A DNA stretch of 32,383 nucleotides from Betaproteobacteria bacterium (GTDB lineage Bacteria > Pseudomonadota > Gammaproteobacteria > Burkholderiales > Burkholderiaceae_A): contig VGHK01000023.1 of the NCBI GenBank assembly GCA_016868305.1, positions 1 to 32,383 of the forward strand, given 5' to 3'. Positions 1,418 to 20,706 of this stretch are shown one piece after another. Every line of letters begins with the position of its first letter. Position 1 is the stretch's first letter. The notes under the pieces are model-generated. The model saw only the letters and a list, made by a program, of their open reading frames with translations. It had not been told where the DNA came from and searched no databases. Made by a program: the position numbers and the translations under genes.

Positions 1418-2480
1418 GAATGTTTTGTCTCAGTACCCCCGCATTGTAAGCGCCCAAGAGGTTCTGCGCTCTGTATCTGCATTCGATACGATTGTTGACA
1501 CGCGTACCCCGCCAGAGTTCGCGGAAGACCACATTCCCGGTGCGATCTGTCTGCCAGTGCTCAATACCGAGGAACGGGCAGAGATCGGCACCCTCTATAA
1601 AGAAGATGCCTTTCGGGCCAAGCGCAGGGGCGCGGCGCTGGTGGCGCGCAATATCGCCGAGCATCTAGTCAATACCCTTGCAGACAAGCCGCGCGACTGG
1701 CTGCCCCTAGTCTACTGCTGGCGGGGGGGCAATCGTAGCGGTGCCATGGCCACGATCTTTGCCAAGATCGGCTGGCGTGTCGCTCTGCTAGAGGGAGGCT
1801 ATCGTGCCTATCGGCGCGAGGTAATCGGCGCCATTCGCGAGTGCGTAGCGGCAGTCCGGTTTGTCGTGGTCTGCGGCGTTACTGGCTCTGGTAAGACCCG
1901 GTTTTTGTCGGCGCTTGCGCGTCAAGGACACCAGGTGCTCGATCTTGAGGCCCTGGCTTTGCATAAAGGGTCCCTGCTTGGGTTTCATCCCGATGCGCCG
2001 CAGCCCAGCCAGAAGTATTTCGAATCCTTACTCCTGCAGGCACTGCAGGGCTATGCCACCGACAGGCCTGTGTATGTGGAATCAGAGAGCCGCAAAATCG
2101 GCCAGGTGCAGCTGCCTGAGGCCCTCATTCTAGCCATGCGGGCAAGCCCTTGTATCTCGCTGGCGCTCTCGCTAGAAGACCGCGTGGGGCTGCTCTGCGA
2201 GGAATACCAGCACTTTTTTGAATCGCCTGAGGCCCTGAAGGCCCAGATTCAAAAGCTTGTGCCCATGCATGGTCATGCGGTCTGTGATACCTGGTGCGCA
2301 CTAATCGACCAGCGGCAATGGCAGTCGTTCGTGGAGGCGCTCTTGGTGCAGCACTACGACCCGAGCTACCAGCGGTCCCTGCTAAAAAATTATCCAGGCG
2401 TGGCCCAAGGAAGGCTAGTGCAGCTCTCGGGCTTTCAACCCGAGGACTATGACTCGGTTGCAGCGAGCTTTTCGGGGTAA
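1416..2480 (+). CDS. mnmH: tRNA 2-selenouridine synthase (MnmH/SelU)
   Basis: MnmH replaces the sulfur of 2-thiouridine at tRNA wobble position 34 with selenium from selenophosphate, passing through a geranylated intermediate. The 354-residue product matches the usual size (E. coli 364). The rhodanese domain (about 1-135) contains the active cysteine C101 in YCWRGGNRSG. It is followed by a P-loop domain with GVTGSGKT at 154-161 and the LDLE.LALHKGS...P.PSQ..FE segment typical of MnmH. The open frame extends upstream to 1275, but that part lies antisense to the DUF1178 gene and resembles nothing, so the ATG at 1416 is preferred. Its Shine-Dalgarno sequence is poor. The 3' end overlaps the convergent ppiD gene by 34 bp. 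A selenophosphate synthetase (selD) should exist elsewhere in the genome. Confidence 0.92.
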   Translation: MNVLSQYPRIVSAQEVLRSVSAFDTIVDTRTPPEFAEDHIPGAICLPVLNTEERAEIGTLYKEDAFRAKRRGAALVARNIAEHLVNTLADKPRDWLPLVYCWRGGNRSGAMATIFAKIGWRVALLEGGYRAYRREVIGAIRECVAAVRFVVVCGVTGSGKTRFLSALARQGHQVLDLEALALHKGSLLGFHPDAPQPSQKYFESLLLQALQGYATDRPVYVESESRKIGQVQLPEALILAMRASPCISLALSLEDRVGLLCEEYQHFFESPEALKAQIQKLVPMHGHAVCDTWCALIDQRQWQSFVEALLVQHYDPSYQRSLLKNYPGVAQGRLVQLSGFQPEDYDSVAASFSG

Positions 2481-3985
2481 CGCTCCACCTTAAATCGCTT
2501 CTCCTGTTCGCGCAGCCAGTTGGACCAGGAGGTCTCGGCAGTGACCCGTTCCATGCCAGTAAAGAGTTCTCCGAGCCTAGCACGAATGCGGGGCGCATCT
2601 TCGGCCGCGATACTGGTGGTGGTCCAGACAAACGCCAGGCTTCCTTCGCCAGGGCCCAGATCGATTACCGAGGGCTTTAGCCGGGTGAGGCCCGCAGAGA
2701 ATACCTGCCGTGCAACATCTCGCTGGCTGTTGGGGTTGGTGAAGTCCAGTACCTTGATGAGACCCTCGAGATTGTCTCGCGAGATGTCGAGGCGCTTGAG
2801 CCCCATGGCCCCAAGACTGGTGCGCTGGGCCACAAGCTCTGACGACTGCGACAGGGCCTGCTGCATCTGGGCAGCCCGCTGATCGGCCTGGTCGCGTGCC
2901 AGCTGCGCTGACTTCACCCGGGCCAGCTCTGCCCGTATCTGCGGCGTTACCTGGGCAAGCGACAAAGGCTCACTGGCATAGTGCTTGTCTACCCGGGCAC
3001 TTACCATAAGCCCGGGCCGTACCTCGATGGCCTCTGTGTTTCTGCCATCGGTGAGCACGTCAGGGGAGAACACCGCCTGTCGCAGGGGCCCATGGTTGAG
3101 CGCTAAGGCAGCCTCTGGGCTGGCAGAAGCCGTGCCCGCCACGTTATAGGGGCCGGACCGGGTAACCCCTGTAAACGAAACCACCGAGAGCCCGAGCCGC
3201 TGCGCGGCAGGCTGCAGGGTGTCGCTCTGCTCATAGACCAGATTGGAGAATGTCTCAGCCTTTTCGCTGTCAGGCTTAACAAGAATGAGCAGAGAGAGGT
3301 CTACCCTTTCGTCGGTGCGGTAGTCGGCCTGGCGCGCCTCAAAGTAGCTCTTTATCTCGTCATCAGAGGGCTGGGCATTAGCAAGTTGCGCCTGGGCAGA
3401 GAGCCGCACGACCCAGATCTCGCGCAGTTCGGTCTCCGACTGGGACAGGCGTCTGGCAAGACGTCGCGAAACAATCTCTGTCTGGCCAATGGCGCTGGGA
3501 TACTTTTCGGTGAGCAGGTCTGACCGCAGTCCCGCCTCAAAACCCGCGGAGGTGAGACCACGGGCCGCAAGGAACTGCTTGGCAAGCTCAAGATCGAAGC
3601 GGCCATCGGTCTGAAACTGCGGCACCTGCGCGATCATGGCGGCGATCTGAGAATCCGGAATCACCAGCCCTGCCTTGCGTGCTGCGGCTAGCGTAACCTC
3701 CCGGCCCACGAGTTCGTCAAGAGACTCCACCCGACTCGCCGGTGTATCGAAGGCCGAGAATGGCACCTTCCCCCCGAACTGCGAGACCATGGCCTCCACC
3801 GACCGACGATGGGTTTCCTGCCATACGGGCGTAGTGATCTCTCGGCCATCAACTACCGCCAGGGTGGAAGCGCCAGACCGCGGTGATACCAAGTCCCAGG
3901 CCCCGACAATCACGAACGAGGGCACGATAAAAATCAGGAGAACGACCTGCATGATGCGCCGGTGTCGGCGAATAGTATCGAGCAT
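2447..3985 (-). CDS. ppiD: PpiD-like membrane-anchored periplasmic chaperone lacking the parvulin PPIase domain
   Basis: PpiD is an inner-membrane chaperone near the Sec translocon, with an N-terminal anchor and a periplasmic SurA-like fold. This protein has a short cytoplasmic start and one membrane segment (about 11-30). The SurA-like N-terminal domain follows (VVDGREIT, DELV.REVTLAAARKAGLVIPDSQI, FQTDGRFD). After the YFE.RQADYRTDERVDLSLLILV stretch, where the parvulin domain normally begins, the sequence passes at about residue 240 straight to AETFSNLVYEQSDTLQPAA. In relatives that segment comes after the parvulin domain. No GGDLG or FGYHII parvulin hallmarks are present. The total of 512 residues fits a loss of about 110-120 from the usual 620-640. 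It follows tRNA-Asp by 57 bp and probably ends the hupB-tRNA transcript. The chaperone role is plausible; PPIase activity is not expected. Confidence 0.85.
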   Translation of the reverse strand: MLDTIRRHRRIMQVVLLIFIVPSFVIVGAWDLVSPRSGASTLAVVDGREITTPVWQETHRRSVEAMVSQFGGKVPFSAFDTPASRVESLDELVGREVTLAAARKAGLVIPDSQIAAMIAQVPQFQTDGRFDLELAKQFLAARGLTSAGFEAGLRSDLLTEKYPSAIGQTEIVSRRLARRLSQSETELREIWVVRLSAQAQLANAQPSDDEIKSYFEARQADYRTDERVDLSLLILVKPDSEKAETFSNLVYEQSDTLQPAAQRLGLSVVSFTGVTRSGPYNVAGTASASPEAALALNHGPLRQAVFSPDVLTDGRNTEAIEVRPGLMVSARVDKHYASEPLSLAQVTPQIRAELARVKSAQLARDQADQRAAQMQQALSQSSELVAQRTSLGAMGLKRLDISRDNLEGLIKVLDFTNPNSQRDVARQVFSAGLTRLKPSVIDLGPGEGSLAFVWTTTSIAAEDAPRIRARLGELFTGMERVTAETSWSNWLREQEKRFKVERYPEKLAATES

Positions 3986-4042: not shown

Positions 4043-4119
4043 TGGCGGAGCGGACGGGACTCGAACCCGCGACCCCCGGCGTGACAGGCCGGTATTCTAA
4101 CCGACTGAACTACCGCTCC
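4043..4119 (-). tRNA. tRNA-Asp (anticodon GTC)
   Basis: This is a 77-nt cloverleaf with the 3' CCA encoded (complement of 4043-4045). The acceptor stem GGAGCGG pairs with CCGCTCC. The D-arm begins TAGTTCAGTCGG, the anticodon loop reads CTGTCAC with GTC at 4085-4083, and the T-arm contains GGTTCGAGTCC. It is almost identical to the E. coli tRNA-Asp. It lies 103 bp downstream of tRNA-Val on the same strand. Confidence 0.98.
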
Positions 4120-4222: not shown

Positions 4223-4298
4223 TGGTGGGTGCTGAGAGGTTCGAACTCCCGACCTACGCCTTGTAAGGGCGCCGCTCTACCAGCTGAGCTAAGCACCC
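4223..4298 (-). tRNA. tRNA-Val (anticodon TAC)
   Basis: This is a 76-nt cloverleaf with encoded CCA. The acceptor stem GGGTGCT pairs with AGCACCC, with discriminator A. The anticodon loop CTTACAA (4267-4261) places TAC at 4265-4263, and the T-arm has AGTTCGAACCT. It starts 16 bp after the hupB stop codon, so it is probably processed from a hupB read-through transcript. Confidence 0.98.
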
Positions 4299-4314: not shown

Positions 4315-4587
4315 CTAGTTTAATGCGTCTTTTAGGGCCTTGCCAGGACGAAACTTGGGAAGCTTGGCAGCCTTGATCTTAATGGCCTCGCCAGTGCGGG
4401 GATTGCGGCCGGCGCGGGCAGCGCGCTTTGATACAGCAAAGGTGCCAAAGCCCACCAGAGTAACAGCGCCACCTTTTTTCAGGGTTCCGCGAACACCGGC
4501 AAGAAATGCATCTAGCGCCCGGCCTGCGGCCGCCTTGGAGATGTCTGCCTGTTTGGCAATATGCTCGATCATGTCTGTTTTGTTCAC
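4315..4587 (-). CDS. hupB: DNA-binding protein HU (beta-type)
   Basis: HU is a small dimeric nucleoid protein that bends DNA without strong sequence preference. The 90-residue product is full length. It has the helical dimerisation part (about 1-45, with [12 protein letters not shown]) followed by the DNA-binding arm GRNPRTGE (about 61-68) and the final [12 protein letters not shown]. The start is GTG at 4587-4585. It is supported by an AAGGA Shine-Dalgarno sequence nine bases upstream and by the family N-terminus [11 protein letters not shown]. The position between lon and ppiD is the usual one in this group of bacteria. A near-consensus sigma-70 promoter lies about 50-80 bp upstream. Confidence 0.97.
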
Positions 4588-4727: not shown

Positions 4728-7151
4728 CTAGTGCTTTACTGCCTCGGGAGTGCCCGTAGGCAGGTCTACCGCAGGCTGCCCTGGAACCGCTGCCGACGCG
4801 GTGTCTTCATCAGCCAAAGGCGTTGGCGTTTGGGCGAGCGCGAGTTCGAGTACACGGTCGATCCAGCGCACTGGGATGATCTCCAGAGAGTTCTTCACGT
4901 TGGCGGGAATCTCCGCAAGGTCGCGTACGTTCTGCTCGGGAATAAGTACCTTCTTGATGCCACCGCGGTGGGCTGCCAGAAGCTTTTCTTTCAAGCCACC
5001 AATCTGCAAGACCTCACCGCGAAGCGTGATCTCTCCGGTCATTGCCACATCGGCACGCACCGGAATGCCCGTCATGGCAGAGACCATAGCTGTCGTCATC
5101 GCAATACCGGCACTGGGACCATCTTTGGGGGTTGCGCCTTCGGGGGCATGGATGTGCAGGTCGCGCTTCTCGAAGTGTTCTTCGCGAATACCGAGCCTGC
5201 GGGCCCGGCTGCGCACCACCGAACGGGCGGCCTCTACCGACTCTTTCATGACATCGCCGAGCGACCCGGTGCGAATGATATTGCCCTTACCGGGCATAAC
5301 GGCTGCCTCGATGGTGAGCAGTTCGCCACCAACCTCTGTCCATGCCAGACCGGTGACCTCGCCTACCTGGTCTTCCTTTTCGGCCACGCCAAAGGTGAAT
5401 TTCTTTACCCCTAGGAAGTCTTCAATGTTCTCCGCCGAAACCGCCACCGTCTGCGCGTCTTTCTTGCCCAAGACCTTGCGGGTAACCTTGCGGCAGATCT
5501 TAGAGAGTTCACGCTCAAGCGCCCGCACGCCGGCCTCGCGGGTGTAGGAGCGAATGATCTCGCGAATGGCATCTTCGGCCACGGCAATCTCGCTTGGCTT
5601 GAGGCCCGTATGCTTAATCTGCTTGGGCAAGAGGTAACGCTGCGCGATATTCACCTTCTCGTCTTCGGTGTATCCCGACAGACGGATCACCTCCATGCGG
5701 TCAAGCAGTGCGGGTGGAATATTGAGCGAGTTGGCCGTTGCCACAAACATGACATCGGACAAGTCGTACTCTACTTCTACATAGTGGTCGGTAAAGGTGT
5801 TGTTCTGCTCGGGGTCAAGCACCTCTAACAACGCACTCGCAGGGTCACCACGGAAGTCCATGCCCATCTTGTCGACTTCGTCGAGCAGGAAGAGCGGATT
5901 ACGCACGCCCACCTTGGTGAGGCTGGTAAGAATCTTGCCGGGCATGGAGCCAATATAGGTGCGGCGATGCCCACGAATCTCGGACTCATCGCGCACGCCG
6001 CCCAAGGCCATACGCACAAACTTGCGATTTGTCGCGCGGGCCATCGACTGACCGAGAGAGGTCTTACCCACACCTGGGGGGCCAACCAGACAGAGAATGG
6101 GTGCCTTTACCTTATCGACCCGCTGCTGCACGGCCAGGTATTCGAGAATGCGCTCTTTTACCTTCTCTAGGCCAAAGTGTTCTTCCTCGAGCACCTGTTC
6201 GGCCGCGGCGAGGTCGCCATTGACCTTGCTCTTCTTGCGCCAGGGCAGGCCGACCAAAGCGTCCACATAGTTGCGCACCACGGTGGCCTCGGCCGACATG
6301 GGGGACATCATGCGCAGCTTTTTAAGTTCTGTCTGGGCCTTATCACGGGCCTCTTTGGGCATACGGGCGGCCTTGATCTTCTTGTCGATCTCGTCGAGTT
6401 CGTTGTCCTCGCCCTCACCGAGTTCTTTTTGAATGGCCTTGACCTGCTCGTTTAGGTAGTACTCGCGCTGGCTTTTTTCCATCTGGCGCTTCACACGGCC
6501 ACGGATGCGCTTTTCAACCTGCAGAATATCAAGCTCGGTTTCGATCTGGGCCAGAAGCTTTTCCAGCCGCTCGGCAACAGGCAGTACCTCAAGCACCGCC
6601 TGCTTTTCTTCCAGCTTCATGGGCAGATGGGCCGCGATGGTGTCTGCCAGGCGGCCGGGCTCCTCCATGCTTACCAGGCTGTTGAGGATCTCTGCCGGAA
6701 TCTTTTTATTCAGCTTTACAAACTGGTCAAACTGGGTAAGGATCGTGCGCCTTAAGGCCTCGACCTCCGGGCCCTGTTTCTGCTCGGGCGTGATGGGACG
6801 GCAGACCACCCGCAGATGGTCTTCAGCCTCGTGCATATCCAGAAGCTCTGCCCGCTGCACGCCTTCGACTAGCACCTTTACGGTGCCATCGGGCAGCTTG
6901 AGCATTTGCAGAATACTTGCCAGGCAGCCGATGGCATAGATGTCGGGAGCGCCGGGTTCGTCCTGGGTGGGCGACTTCTGCGCCGCCAAGAGCACATGGC
7001 TGCCCGACTCCATAGCCTTTTCCATAGCCCGAATCGACTTGGGCCGCCCGACAAAGAGCGGAATAACCATGTGCGGAAAGACCACCACATCCCGCAGGGG
7101 AAGCATGGGGAGGTCTATGGGTTCGTGGGCGAGAAGTTCTGGTTTGGACAT
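4728..7151 (-). CDS. lon: ATP-dependent Lon protease (La)
   Basis: Lon degrades misfolded and regulatory proteins in the cytoplasm as a hexamer combining AAA+ unfoldase and serine-lysine protease in one chain. The 807-residue product is full length. It has the LON substrate-binding domain (about 12-205), a coiled linker (about 205-300), the AAA+ module with Walker A GPPGVGKT (357-364) and the FLLDEVDK Walker B. The protease domain carries the catalytic Ser680 in KDGPSAG and Lys723 in GGLKEK. Extra Ala/Pro-rich residues follow the conserved core at the C-terminus. The ATG at 7151 has an AAGG sequence 10 bases upstream. It lies 84 bp downstream of clpX, with its own sigma-32-like promoter in the gap, so heat-shock induction is likely. 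Confidence 0.98.
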   Translation of the reverse strand: MSKPELLAHEPIDLPMLPLRDVVVFPHMVIPLFVGRPKSIRAMEKAMESGSHVLLAAQKSPTQDEPGAPDIYAIGCLASILQMLKLPDGTVKVLVEGVQRAELLDMHEAEDHLRVVCRPITPEQKQGPEVEALRRTILTQFDQFVKLNKKIPAEILNSLVSMEEPGRLADTIAAHLPMKLEEKQAVLEVLPVAERLEKLLAQIETELDILQVEKRIRGRVKRQMEKSQREYYLNEQVKAIQKELGEGEDNELDEIDKKIKAARMPKEARDKAQTELKKLRMMSPMSAEATVVRNYVDALVGLPWRKKSKVNGDLAAAEQVLEEEHFGLEKVKERILEYLAVQQRVDKVKAPILCLVGPPGVGKTSLGQSMARATNRKFVRMALGGVRDESEIRGHRRTYIGSMPGKILTSLTKVGVRNPLFLLDEVDKMGMDFRGDPASALLEVLDPEQNNTFTDHYVEVEYDLSDVMFVATANSLNIPPALLDRMEVIRLSGYTEDEKVNIAQRYLLPKQIKHTGLKPSEIAVAEDAIREIIRSYTREAGVRALERELSKICRKVTRKVLGKKDAQTVAVSAENIEDFLGVKKFTFGVAEKEDQVGEVTGLAWTEVGGELLTIEAAVMPGKGNIIRTGSLGDVMKESVEAARSVVRSRARRLGIREEHFEKRDLHIHAPEGATPKDGPSAGIAMTTAMVSAMTGIPVRADVAMTGEITLRGEVLQIGGLKEKLLAAHRGGIKKVLIPEQNVRDLAEIPANVKNSLEIIPVRWIDRVLELALAQTPTPLADEDTASAAVPGQPAVDLPTGTPEAVKH

Positions 7152-17977: not shown

Positions 17978-19276
17978 CTAGGAACGCAGATCAGGCGCGA
18001 GCGCCTGGGCCATAACAAAGCTGCCCTCCTGAGAGGCATCGGTCGCAATGGCCCGGGCCCTTGCCTCACGCAGACCCTGGGCCTGCAAGGACAGGGCTCG
18101 CTGCATCAGCAGGGCGTCTTCGCGACTGCCTTTTTCAGCAGGGTAGTAGCCCTTACGCCGGCCAATCTCGGCAAAGCCATTACGCGCATAGAGTCGAATC
18201 CCAGCGTCGTTGGAGGGACGTACTTCCAGAAGCATCGAGGCGGCCCCCTCATCGGCCACGCGGGCCAGAAGCCGCTCTAGAAAGGCCTGGCCCAGACCAC
18301 GCCGCTGCCGCAGAGGCGCAATCGTGAAGTTCAAGAGATGGGCCTCGTCCAGCACCCGCATGTAGATGCAGTAGCCCACCATGGCCCCCTGGTCCACCAG
18401 CTTGAGCGCGGTATAGCCTGCTGCCAGGGCATCCCGAAAATTGCCGGAGGTCCAGGGAAAGGCATAGGCCTGATTCTCAATCACCATGACCGAGGCAAGG
18501 TCGTGGCTGGATAAAGGCTGCAGCTGCAGCGCCGGGCCCTGCTCGCGCTCGGCCCTGGTCTGGGCAACCTTTGAGCGCACATACAGTGGCTGGGCCATGA
18601 TCGGCGGAAGAAATAAGGCCGCGGGGTCGGGGGCGTCGACGACCACCGCGAGGCTCCAGGCGGCAACAGACTGCAGAGACAGGTCGCCTGCTCCTGAAGC
18701 GCGATAAGGCGGCGCAAAGGCGTCTGGTTGTGGATCGCGCAAAACGCCCGGGGCCTCGTCGGGGAGCGCTGAGACGATCTCGGGTTCGCTGGCGTAGCCC
18801 ATGGGATAGCCCTGGGCGTTACGCATCACCGAGGCAGAGTAGTACTCACCGAGCCGGGCATCAAAATAGATCGCGACAGGGCGGGCGGTATCCAAATCCC
18901 CGGCCAGACCAGGCCTACCCGAGGCATCTGCAGCATCCTTGCCTTGGGCCTTGCCATGGGCATAGGCCATGGCAAAAAACCCCGAGACACAGGCTACCCC
19001 CACCCCCAGCCCGCGGGCCATTCCCTGCACCAGACCCGCCGCAATCCGCAGGCCGGTAAACGAACCCGGCCCCTGGCCCAGAACAAACCCACGCACGGAC
19101 TGCAGCGACAGGCCCGCTGCCGCCAGGAGTGCCTGGGCCTCGGGCAGCAGATCAGAGGCCTGGTTCTGTCCGGCAGGAAGGATGCGGCCCCGCCAGTCTT
19201 CGGCAGACAGCGCAAGCACCAGACTGCCTGCCCCTCGGGAACAGTCCACCGCCAGCAGCGGGTAGCGAAGGCTCAT
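17978..19276 (-). CDS. tsaB-rimI: TsaB-RimI fusion: t6A-synthesis subunit TsaB joined to ribosomal protein S18 N-acetyltransferase
   Basis: One 432-residue open frame holds two proteins that are usually encoded by adjacent genes. Residues 1-235 are TsaB, the TsaD partner needed for threonylcarbamoyl-adenosine at tRNA position 37. They start LLAVDCS and contain the [11 protein letters not shown] signature (67-77). Residues 255-395 are a GNAT acetyltransferase of the RimI type, which acetylates the S18 N-terminus. This part has [10 protein letters not shown] for acetyl-CoA (323-332), LLEVRPSN with Glu351, and Tyr378 in GYYP. TsaB carries a low-complexity insert (about 107-130). The tail after 395 is an extra 35-residue extension. 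The ATG at 19276 overlaps the ispDF stop (ATGA); the frame is open further upstream to 19345 but antisense logic and conservation favour 19276. Confidence 0.9.
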
Positions 19277-20706
19277 GATGCTGGCACCACCATGGCGACC
19301 GCCTGGCAGGCAATGCCCTCGCCCCGGCCGGTAAACCCCAGCCATTCCGTGGTGGTGGCCTTTACATTCACGCGGCTGCAGCCGCAGTCAGCCTGGATAT
19401 TGGCCACCATCTGGGCAATATGCGGCGCCATCTTGGGTGCCTGGGCAATGATCGTGGCATCAATCTGCTGTGGGGCCAGACCCAGACCCTTGAGTTTGGC
19501 AACCACATCGCGCAGTAAGACCCGGCTGTCGGCATCCTTGTAAGCCGCCGCACTATCGGGAAAATGCCGGCCGATATCTCCCAGGCCTGCAGCGCCCAGC
19601 AAGGCATCACAGATGGCATGCAGCAGGGCATCGGCATCGGAGTGGCCCAAGAGACCCTTCTCATACGGAATCTCCACTCCCCCGAGAACCAGACGCCGCC
19701 CTTCGACCAGGGCATGCACATCAAAGCCTTGGCCGATCCGTGGCCAGGCAGTCGGCAGTGCGGGTGTGGTCATATCAGAGAAGCCCGTAAAGTCTTTTTC
19801 ATAAGTGAACTTGCGGTTGGCCCAGTCGCCTTCCACCAGTATCGGACAAACGCCGAGATTCTCGATGGCGCTCGACTCATCGGTGGCGGTGGGCATGGCC
19901 CGAAGCGCATTGGTAAGCGGCGCTAACCGAAACATCTGCGGCGTCTGGGCAAGCCAGAGGCCCTCCCGGGAAAGGGTCTGGGCCACCTTGGGGACAACTG
20001 CGTTATTCCCAGGAACCAAGTCCCGCCCGGCCTGACGGTGCTCACCCGGACGATCGATCGGGTCATCCTCCCCGACCGAGCTCTGGCGCTTCACGGTGTC
20101 GGGCACTGGCAGGGCCAGAAGCCCCCCGCTCTCGCTCTTATGCAAGGCGGACCAGAGCCGCATCAGGGCATCAGACGAAAGCTCCGGCCGTGCCGCGTCG
20201 TGCACCATTACCCAGTCACGATCGGCCTCGGGGCCCAGCGCCGTGTGCAGCAGGGTTAATGCCGCCAGTACCGAGTCACGCCGGCTGGCTCCACCGATGG
20301 CGCAGGCCATGAGGGGGAAGTCATTCCCTAGTACTGCCCGCAGCGCTGCTCCTAGCCCTTCTGCCTCCCAGTGGGAATCCTCGGGCGAGACCACCACCAG
20401 AATTCCGGCAAAGGCGTCGATCCGGGCGATTGCTGCCAGGGCCAGCGTGCTGCGTTCGAGCATAGTGGGGCCAGGGCCTCCGCCACGCCAGTACTGCTTG
20501 GGCAGCCCCAGCCCCGCCCGCAGGCCGGCCCCGGCTGCCGGAAGCACGCCCCAAAGGGCTGATGACTGCGATAAGGACGGCGACGAGTGCGCAGCAGAGC
20601 GCACCGCACGGGCACGCCAGGACTGCAGCAGGCCATGGGCCTCTTGGGCAGCGCCGGCATTCTGGGCAGCATCGGCGCGCAGGGGCGTCCGCAGAAAATC
20701 AGTCAT
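19273..20706 (-). CDS. ispDF: IspDF bifunctional enzyme: MEP cytidylyltransferase and MEcPP synthase
   Basis: This fusion would carry out steps three and five of the methylerythritol phosphate isoprenoid pathway. The IspD part (about 51-310) shows [19 protein letters not shown] and MVHDAARP, then [10 protein letters not shown] and [10 protein letters not shown]. The IspF part (about 322-477) starts [11 protein letters not shown] with metal ligands Asp329 and His331. It continues with [23 protein letters not shown] and [15 protein letters not shown]. No stop or Shine-Dalgarno sequence separates them; Met312 could be a remnant IspF start. IspD has an N-terminal extension of about 50 residues and an insertion at about 208-240, where relatives pass directly from DTVKR to the conserved RVA.T segment. 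The true start could be internal. It diverges from mfd with only 18 bp between start codons and heads a five-gene operon. Confidence 0.9.

Follow-up and report, generated by a model that had tools for sequence, protein, structure and literature searches.

A PpiD-type gene lacking its parvulin domain across a sampled family of Burkholderiales

Can a PpiD protein dispense with its parvulin domain? The question is raised by a gene in a 32,383-nucleotide stretch of betaproteobacterial DNA (contig VGHK01000023.1, hereafter the window), which a first-pass annotation, made without database searches, described as a PpiD-like chaperone with the parvulin domain cleanly missing. The need for this domain has been argued from E. 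coli, whose PpiD parvulin is reported to be catalytically inactive in the available parts of PMC2956729 and PMC9797188. We therefore asked what this gene has lost, how widely the loss is shared and how it is best explained.

The locus and its deletion point

The relevant features, in window positions, are:
2447..3985, minus strand: ppiD, parvulin-less form, 512 residues from an ATG start (open reading frame, Pfam, relatives)
3890..3961, minus strand: predicted N-terminal membrane helix, residues 9–32 (helix in the structure model, putatively in the membrane)
3503..3985, minus strand: SurA-like N-terminal domain (SurA_N_3, PF13624), residues 1–161 (Pfam, 129 bits, E 2e-37)
3254..3280, minus strand: junction, residues about 236–244 (alignments; PF00639 absent)
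2969..3319, minus strand: retained degenerate parvulin-like host domain, residues about 223–339 (model secondary structure, fold matches, Rotamase_2 at cut-off)
2495..2959, minus strand: C-terminal half, residues 343–497, with what remains of the second domain plus the NC domain's C-terminal helix (structure model)
4043..4119, minus strand: tRNA-Asp(gtc), directly upstream of ppiD
4223..4298, minus strand: tRNA-Val(tac)
4315..4587, minus strand: HU-family DNA-binding protein gene in the hupB position (named by eye)
4728..7151, minus strand: lon protease gene (named by eye)

The order clpX-lon-hupB-tRNA-Val-tRNA-Asp-ppiD (protein genes named by eye) agrees with the earlier statement that the gene sits after hupB and the tRNAs, and it matches the lon-hupB-(tRNAs)-ppiD neighbourhood usual for PpiD. 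Both tRNA genes precede ppiD in all eight scanned loci of the window's family (f1), only tRNA-Val does so in the two scanned loci of genus g33 described below, and tRNA-Asp lies upstream of ppiD in both scanned full-length loci (L150 and L028). In the protein, the predicted membrane helix is followed by the SurA-like domain and by a C-terminal half homologous to those of other PpiDs; both ends had been described as kept, and both are. The domain scheme applied to the C-terminal half is that of E. coli PpiD, as given in the available part of PMC9643414. The window protein lacks the central canonical parvulin of PpiD (PF00639) and the two conserved histidines of a parvulin-type peptidyl-prolyl isomerase (PPIase); it also lacks the two parvulin domains of SurA. 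Against NCBIfam NF008054, which we take to be the PpiD model, it scored 93.6 bits (cut-off 493), with its best stretch at profile positions 1–239. Judged by its sequence, the window protein is orthologous to PpiD but belongs to a variant without the parvulin.

Two further observations concern the neighbourhood. ppiD and a convergent plus-strand frame (1275–2480), which resembles a tRNA 2-selenouridine synthase gene, share 34 bases at their stop ends (2447–2480). Frames 19273–20706 and 17978–19345 appear by eye to be fusions, IspD-IspF and TsaB with a RimI-like acetyltransferase, respectively.

A jump in the sequence had been noted near residue 240, at about position 3268. Residue 240 indeed corresponds to 3268, and the junction extends over residues 236–244 or so, where the chain across the gap reads VDLSLLILVKPDSEKAETFSNLVYEQSD. 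Here 14 residues separate two flanking anchors, against 160–174 in each of the 27 full-length PpiDs aligned with it; in alignments, full-length relatives carry about 146–160 extra residues at the junction, corresponding to the connectors and the parvulin domain. Pfam searches of the window protein gave no match to PF00639 or PF13616, and Rotamase_2 (PF13145) matched residues 206–346 with 27.0 bits, exactly at its cut-off of 27. We assign this match to a retained degenerate domain, on the basis of the structure models.

The model of the window protein has a mean pLDDT of 86.3 and a pTM of 0.56 (pTM 0.45 for the model of a full-length PpiD). In the host region it predicts a strand at 227–236, helices within 240–264, a strand at 268–275, helices within 290–313 and strands at 320–323 and 326–336, a predicted order that is parvulin-like. 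The same region matched 8sot (Z 8.0, rmsd 3.2, 99 residues), 2m08 (Z 6.5, rmsd 3.1, 85 residues) and 2kgj from E. coli PpiD (Z 6.1, rmsd 3.1, 91 residues); Z-scores of 6–8 alone can reflect a common arrangement, and the Rotamase_2 match agrees with a parvulin-like fold. As a whole, the window model aligned best to SurA with Z 13.9 (rmsd 17.0, 270 residues) and to 8zht, E. coli PpiD-YfgM, with Z 12.1 (rmsd 12.3, 407 residues), the large rmsd values meaning that the domains are placed differently. In the full-length model, the parvulin (strands 268–277 to 361–371) is placed between host strand 228–236 and a long helix at 378–411. The available part of PMC9643414 describes an E. coli PpiD model whose third domain consists of residues 228–261 and 360–470 with the parvulin in between, and both our short and full-length models fit this nested geometry. 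The models thus predict that the parvulin lost here ordinarily sits within a second, degenerate parvulin-like domain, and that this host domain has stayed. Loss of the nested tip would leave the host domain continuous, and its retention explains why the cut is clean and why Rotamase_2 matches marginally. Profile searches, alignments, models and relatives together bear out the missing parvulin. The earlier description of a cleanly missing domain holds for the canonical parvulin, but a degenerate parvulin-like fold is still present.

Distribution of the short form

The sample of family f1 comprises 26 genomes of three genera, of which 25, including the window's own (2.26 Mb, 97 contigs), carry PpiD; all 25 proteins are short and cross the deletion point without the insertion, and the remaining genome, G014, gave no PpiD match. 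The 23 complete proteins measure 484–527 residues, with starts chosen by motif, and ppiD of G016 is truncated by the contig start. Carriers include LSUCC0115 (L037), listed as an isolate, and the one-contig genome G011; other members are TMED41, TMED100, MED-G174 and UBA954. The deletion is not peculiar to this gene and is not of recent origin: the whole sampled family shares it, and it recurs in other lineages. In the draft genome G004, a short ppiD (L021) is spread over three overlapping frames, as a pseudogene or an assembly error; being of short length with a broken frame, it was excluded from alignments and trees. Four metagenome assemblies (L038, L058, L061 and L095) are labelled Bordetella parapertussis or Rickettsia typhi, names that look wrong; they carry PpiD genes of other groups, and that of L038 is a short form like those of f1.

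A survey of the order covered 399 genomes of 51 families. Among the matches listed near its top, the only other contiguous ones came from genus g33 of family f31, the other genera of which have full-length PpiD. A match was found in 134 of 141 g33 genomes; 132 of these cross the deletion point and two end at or before it, with no full-length PpiD among the 134. Genomes of g33 measure 0.9–3.1 Mb, those of relatives 6–7.8 Mb plus one of 1.2 Mb, and the short form may be linked to small genome size. Family f44 is divided, with four of 11 genomes short and seven full length. This family may be Neisseriaceae; the uptake-sequence 10-mer occurs five times in L153 and twice in L154, and in neither L157 nor L132. 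In a survey of the class (369 genomes, 340 with a match), short frames, all read as sequence, were found in at least 19 further genomes from at least 14 gammaproteobacterial families; L235 and L236 were called short from reading the sequence alone. In G679 and G658 a stop had been flagged; it is simply where the gene ends. Architectures were inspected for the order-survey matches listed, for G026–G060 and for 13 + 80 handles, and the counts of short forms are lower bounds.

Profile searches separate the two forms. PF00639 was found in 26 of 26 full-length PpiDs and in none of 30 short proteins at E ≤ 0.01, nor in any of six further f1 proteins at E ≤ 0.1. Rotamase_2, in contrast, matched 29 of the 30 short forms (Pfam, E ≤ 0.01; best E 7.8e-24), which marks the retained host domain as a member of that broader family; in the six further f1 proteins it matched only below the cut-off. 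One weak Rotamase_3 match among the short proteins (E 0.014) misses the 0.01 threshold.

Isomerases, the disulfide pathway and the direction of change

The parvulin could have moved to a separate gene. We rejected this, because the only two PF00639 matches in the window's genome (97% completeness) sit in one SurA-like frame of 455 residues (G000:C21), and no free parvulin was found there. A related possibility is that the domain was lost as another periplasmic isomerase took over its work, rather than because it was never needed. The window's genome does keep the SurA-like frame with its two parvulin matches, and several relatives have short PpiC-like frames; among the matches listed, however, such frames occur in full-length families too and are not specific to short lineages. 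Such a takeover is compatible with the reading proposed below, but we consider it rather unlikely.

A computed model in the available part of PMC9797188 proposes the distal parvulin, or hand, of E. coli PpiD as a dock for DsbA, and loss of the domain might then follow changes in the disulfide pathway. In keeping with this, DsbB was not found in any of the ten genomes of the f1 genera g1 and g2 (G000, G001, G002, G003, G005, G009, G011, G013, G015 and G017). It nevertheless scored over the cut-off in two of three genomes of the third f1 genus, g3 (two of 13 for f1 overall), in six of six g33 genomes (in one of them through no more than a partial match) and in all four short f44 genomes, so that loss of the hand requires no loss of the disulfide system. 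Moreover, DsbB was over the cut-off in 18 of 20 full-length genomes and missing from the other two, which speaks against a general coupling. We rejected a tie between parvulin loss and the DsbA/DsbB pathway on this mixed pattern, and hold it improbable that the lost domain was a DsbA dock whose loss followed changes in that pathway.

Alternatively, PPIase activity may never have been lost, the retained parvulin-like domain (residues 223–339) being itself a working isomerase. Its Rotamase_2 match at the cut-off, its fold matches to parvulin domains (Z 6–8) and the Rotamase_2 matches of 29 of the 30 short forms would agree with this. The histidines argue otherwise. H273 and H363 (numbering of L086), presumably the catalytic ones, lie in the first parvulin strand and near the start of the last, and are invariant in all 26 full-length betaproteobacterial relatives aligned; in the host domain of the window protein, the first strand (227–236) contains no histidine and the last (326–336) only H335, near the strand end. 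Furthermore, a PDB search with a short-family profile retrieved SurA chains only, matched at their N-terminal region, whereas a full-length profile retrieved 73 sequences, most of the best 60 of which were matched at the parvulin domain. We therefore regard a working isomerase in the host domain as very improbable, and the short form as probably devoid of PPIase activity, a reading limited by the parvulin-like fold of the host domain and by its Rotamase_2 matches.

The numbers of residues between the anchors flanking the insertion are bimodal, 12–68 in 30 short forms versus 160–174 in 27 full-length ones. On a tree of 57 PpiDs built without the gap region, the two states change nine times, a number forced by the starred branches; a tree of 41 PpiDs with the insertion omitted gave five changes and placed f1, g33 and f44 in separate groups. 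These trees comprise selected rows, and parsimony counts changes without giving their direction. The short form might thus be ancestral, with the parvulin inserted later in other lineages. Yet full-length PpiDs of distant families have the parvulin at the same point with similar connectors, and repeated insertion at a single point is less likely than repeated loss. Several short forms also retain connector remnants: L153, L198 and L208 match full-length relatives, L153 aligning with L193 and L208 with L232. The single insertion point, the similar connectors and these remnants favour loss over gain, and an ancestral short form seems to us highly implausible.

Repeated independent loss of the parvulin seems to be the pattern. 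The residual gaps of the 30 short forms measure 52–68 residues in 14, 30–43 in four and 12–22 in 12, which include f1. Such a gradation would fit an initial loss of the parvulin core with both connectors intact, as in the first group, and trimming of the connectors afterwards. Within f44, the junction is nearly identical between L153/L190 and L198, all of them short, and one loss plus one regain is as short as two losses. Among the 27 full-length PpiDs, 23 keep both histidines, three keep one (L193, L227 and L232) and one keeps none (L231). Short forms are near relatives of L193 and L232, a hint of decay before deletion. L193, L227, L231 and L232 are possible intermediates preceding deletion.

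Finally, although the window comes from a 97-contig assembly, an artefact of assembly or binning that removed about 0.5 kb from its contig is excluded in practice, since all 24 other f1 genomes with PpiD, among them LSUCC0115 and one-contig G011, share the deletion.

Proposed function and known systems

By their substitution patterns, the short forms are under purifying selection: dN/dS was 0.023–0.218 in 12 of 13 close pairs from f1, g33, f44 and f81, rough values given dS > 1 in seven of the 12, and the 13th pair was saturated. YfgM is the usual partner of PpiD. Its family (PF09976) scored over the cut-off in 42 of 43 genomes examined, the exception being the draft G017, and the window's genome carries its member at G000:C35.

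We consider it likely that ppiD lost its distal parvulin by an in-frame deletion in the ancestor of f1 and was kept by selection afterwards, as a translocon-side chaperone without its hand. From the sequence and the models, the protein would begin with a membrane helix, followed by the SurA-like chaperone domain (NC) and two nested domains. An ordinary PpiD would carry the parvulin at its tip, as an insertion that separates the first strand of the innermost host domain from the first helix; the window protein has lost both this insertion and its connectors, and its host domain is predicted to run without interruption. Through the kept membrane helix and NC domain, the protein may dock on YfgM and the SecYEG translocon and hold freshly exported chains; it would have no prolyl isomerase activity and no hand with which other factors might dock. 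Periplasmic proline isomerization would be left to SurA and, in some relatives, to a PpiC-like protein. That the window protein is a working chaperone we infer from homology, selection and the published work on E. coli.

The same loss would have happened several times, the parvulin being an add-on that can be shed. In its general form, this reading holds that gammaproteobacteria repeatedly shed a dispensable nested domain, the core going first and the connectors being trimmed later. What is conserved in PpiD would be its role, together with YfgM, as a chaperone beside the translocon; the hand would be an accessory, and its loss would be tolerated even in groups that otherwise keep its histidines. 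We favour this generalization with some reserve.

A domain with both histidines in 26 full-length betaproteobacterial relatives is nonetheless absent from the sampled f1 and g33. The several natural deletions, some with full-length sisters, offer material for testing what the parvulin contributes, and they limit the proposal of the hand as a general DsbA dock. In the titles and openings of abstracts of the open-access papers searched, we found no mention of a natural loss of the PpiD parvulin.

Among known systems, E. coli ppiD presumably adjoins lon-hupB as well. In the available part of PMC9643414, E. coli PpiD resembles the window protein in its membrane helix, SurA-like NC domain and nested second and third domains; it retains the distal parvulin, whereas the window protein lacks that domain and the connectors. 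The engineered PpiD-delta-Parv of E. coli has the same module removed and is a functional chaperone: according to the available part of PMC2956729, it complements a strain mutated in fkpA, ppiD and surA and surpasses the wild type in protecting citrate synthase, though it was judged less stable and its rescue of surA skp cells was slightly weaker. That form is a laboratory deletion, whereas the natural form of f1 has also lost the connectors, in all f1 genomes with PpiD. The N-Ct core of SurA has an N-terminal chaperone domain homologous to that of the window protein, and the chaperone activity of SurA is separable from its parvulin domains in the same source. SurA itself has two parvulin domains and a gene of its own; a SurA-like frame also occurs in the window's genome. 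Full-length betaproteobacterial PpiDs, such as L086 from Massilia, have N- and C-terminal parts homologous to those of the window protein; they carry a parvulin with both histidines conserved, a domain that the window protein lacks.
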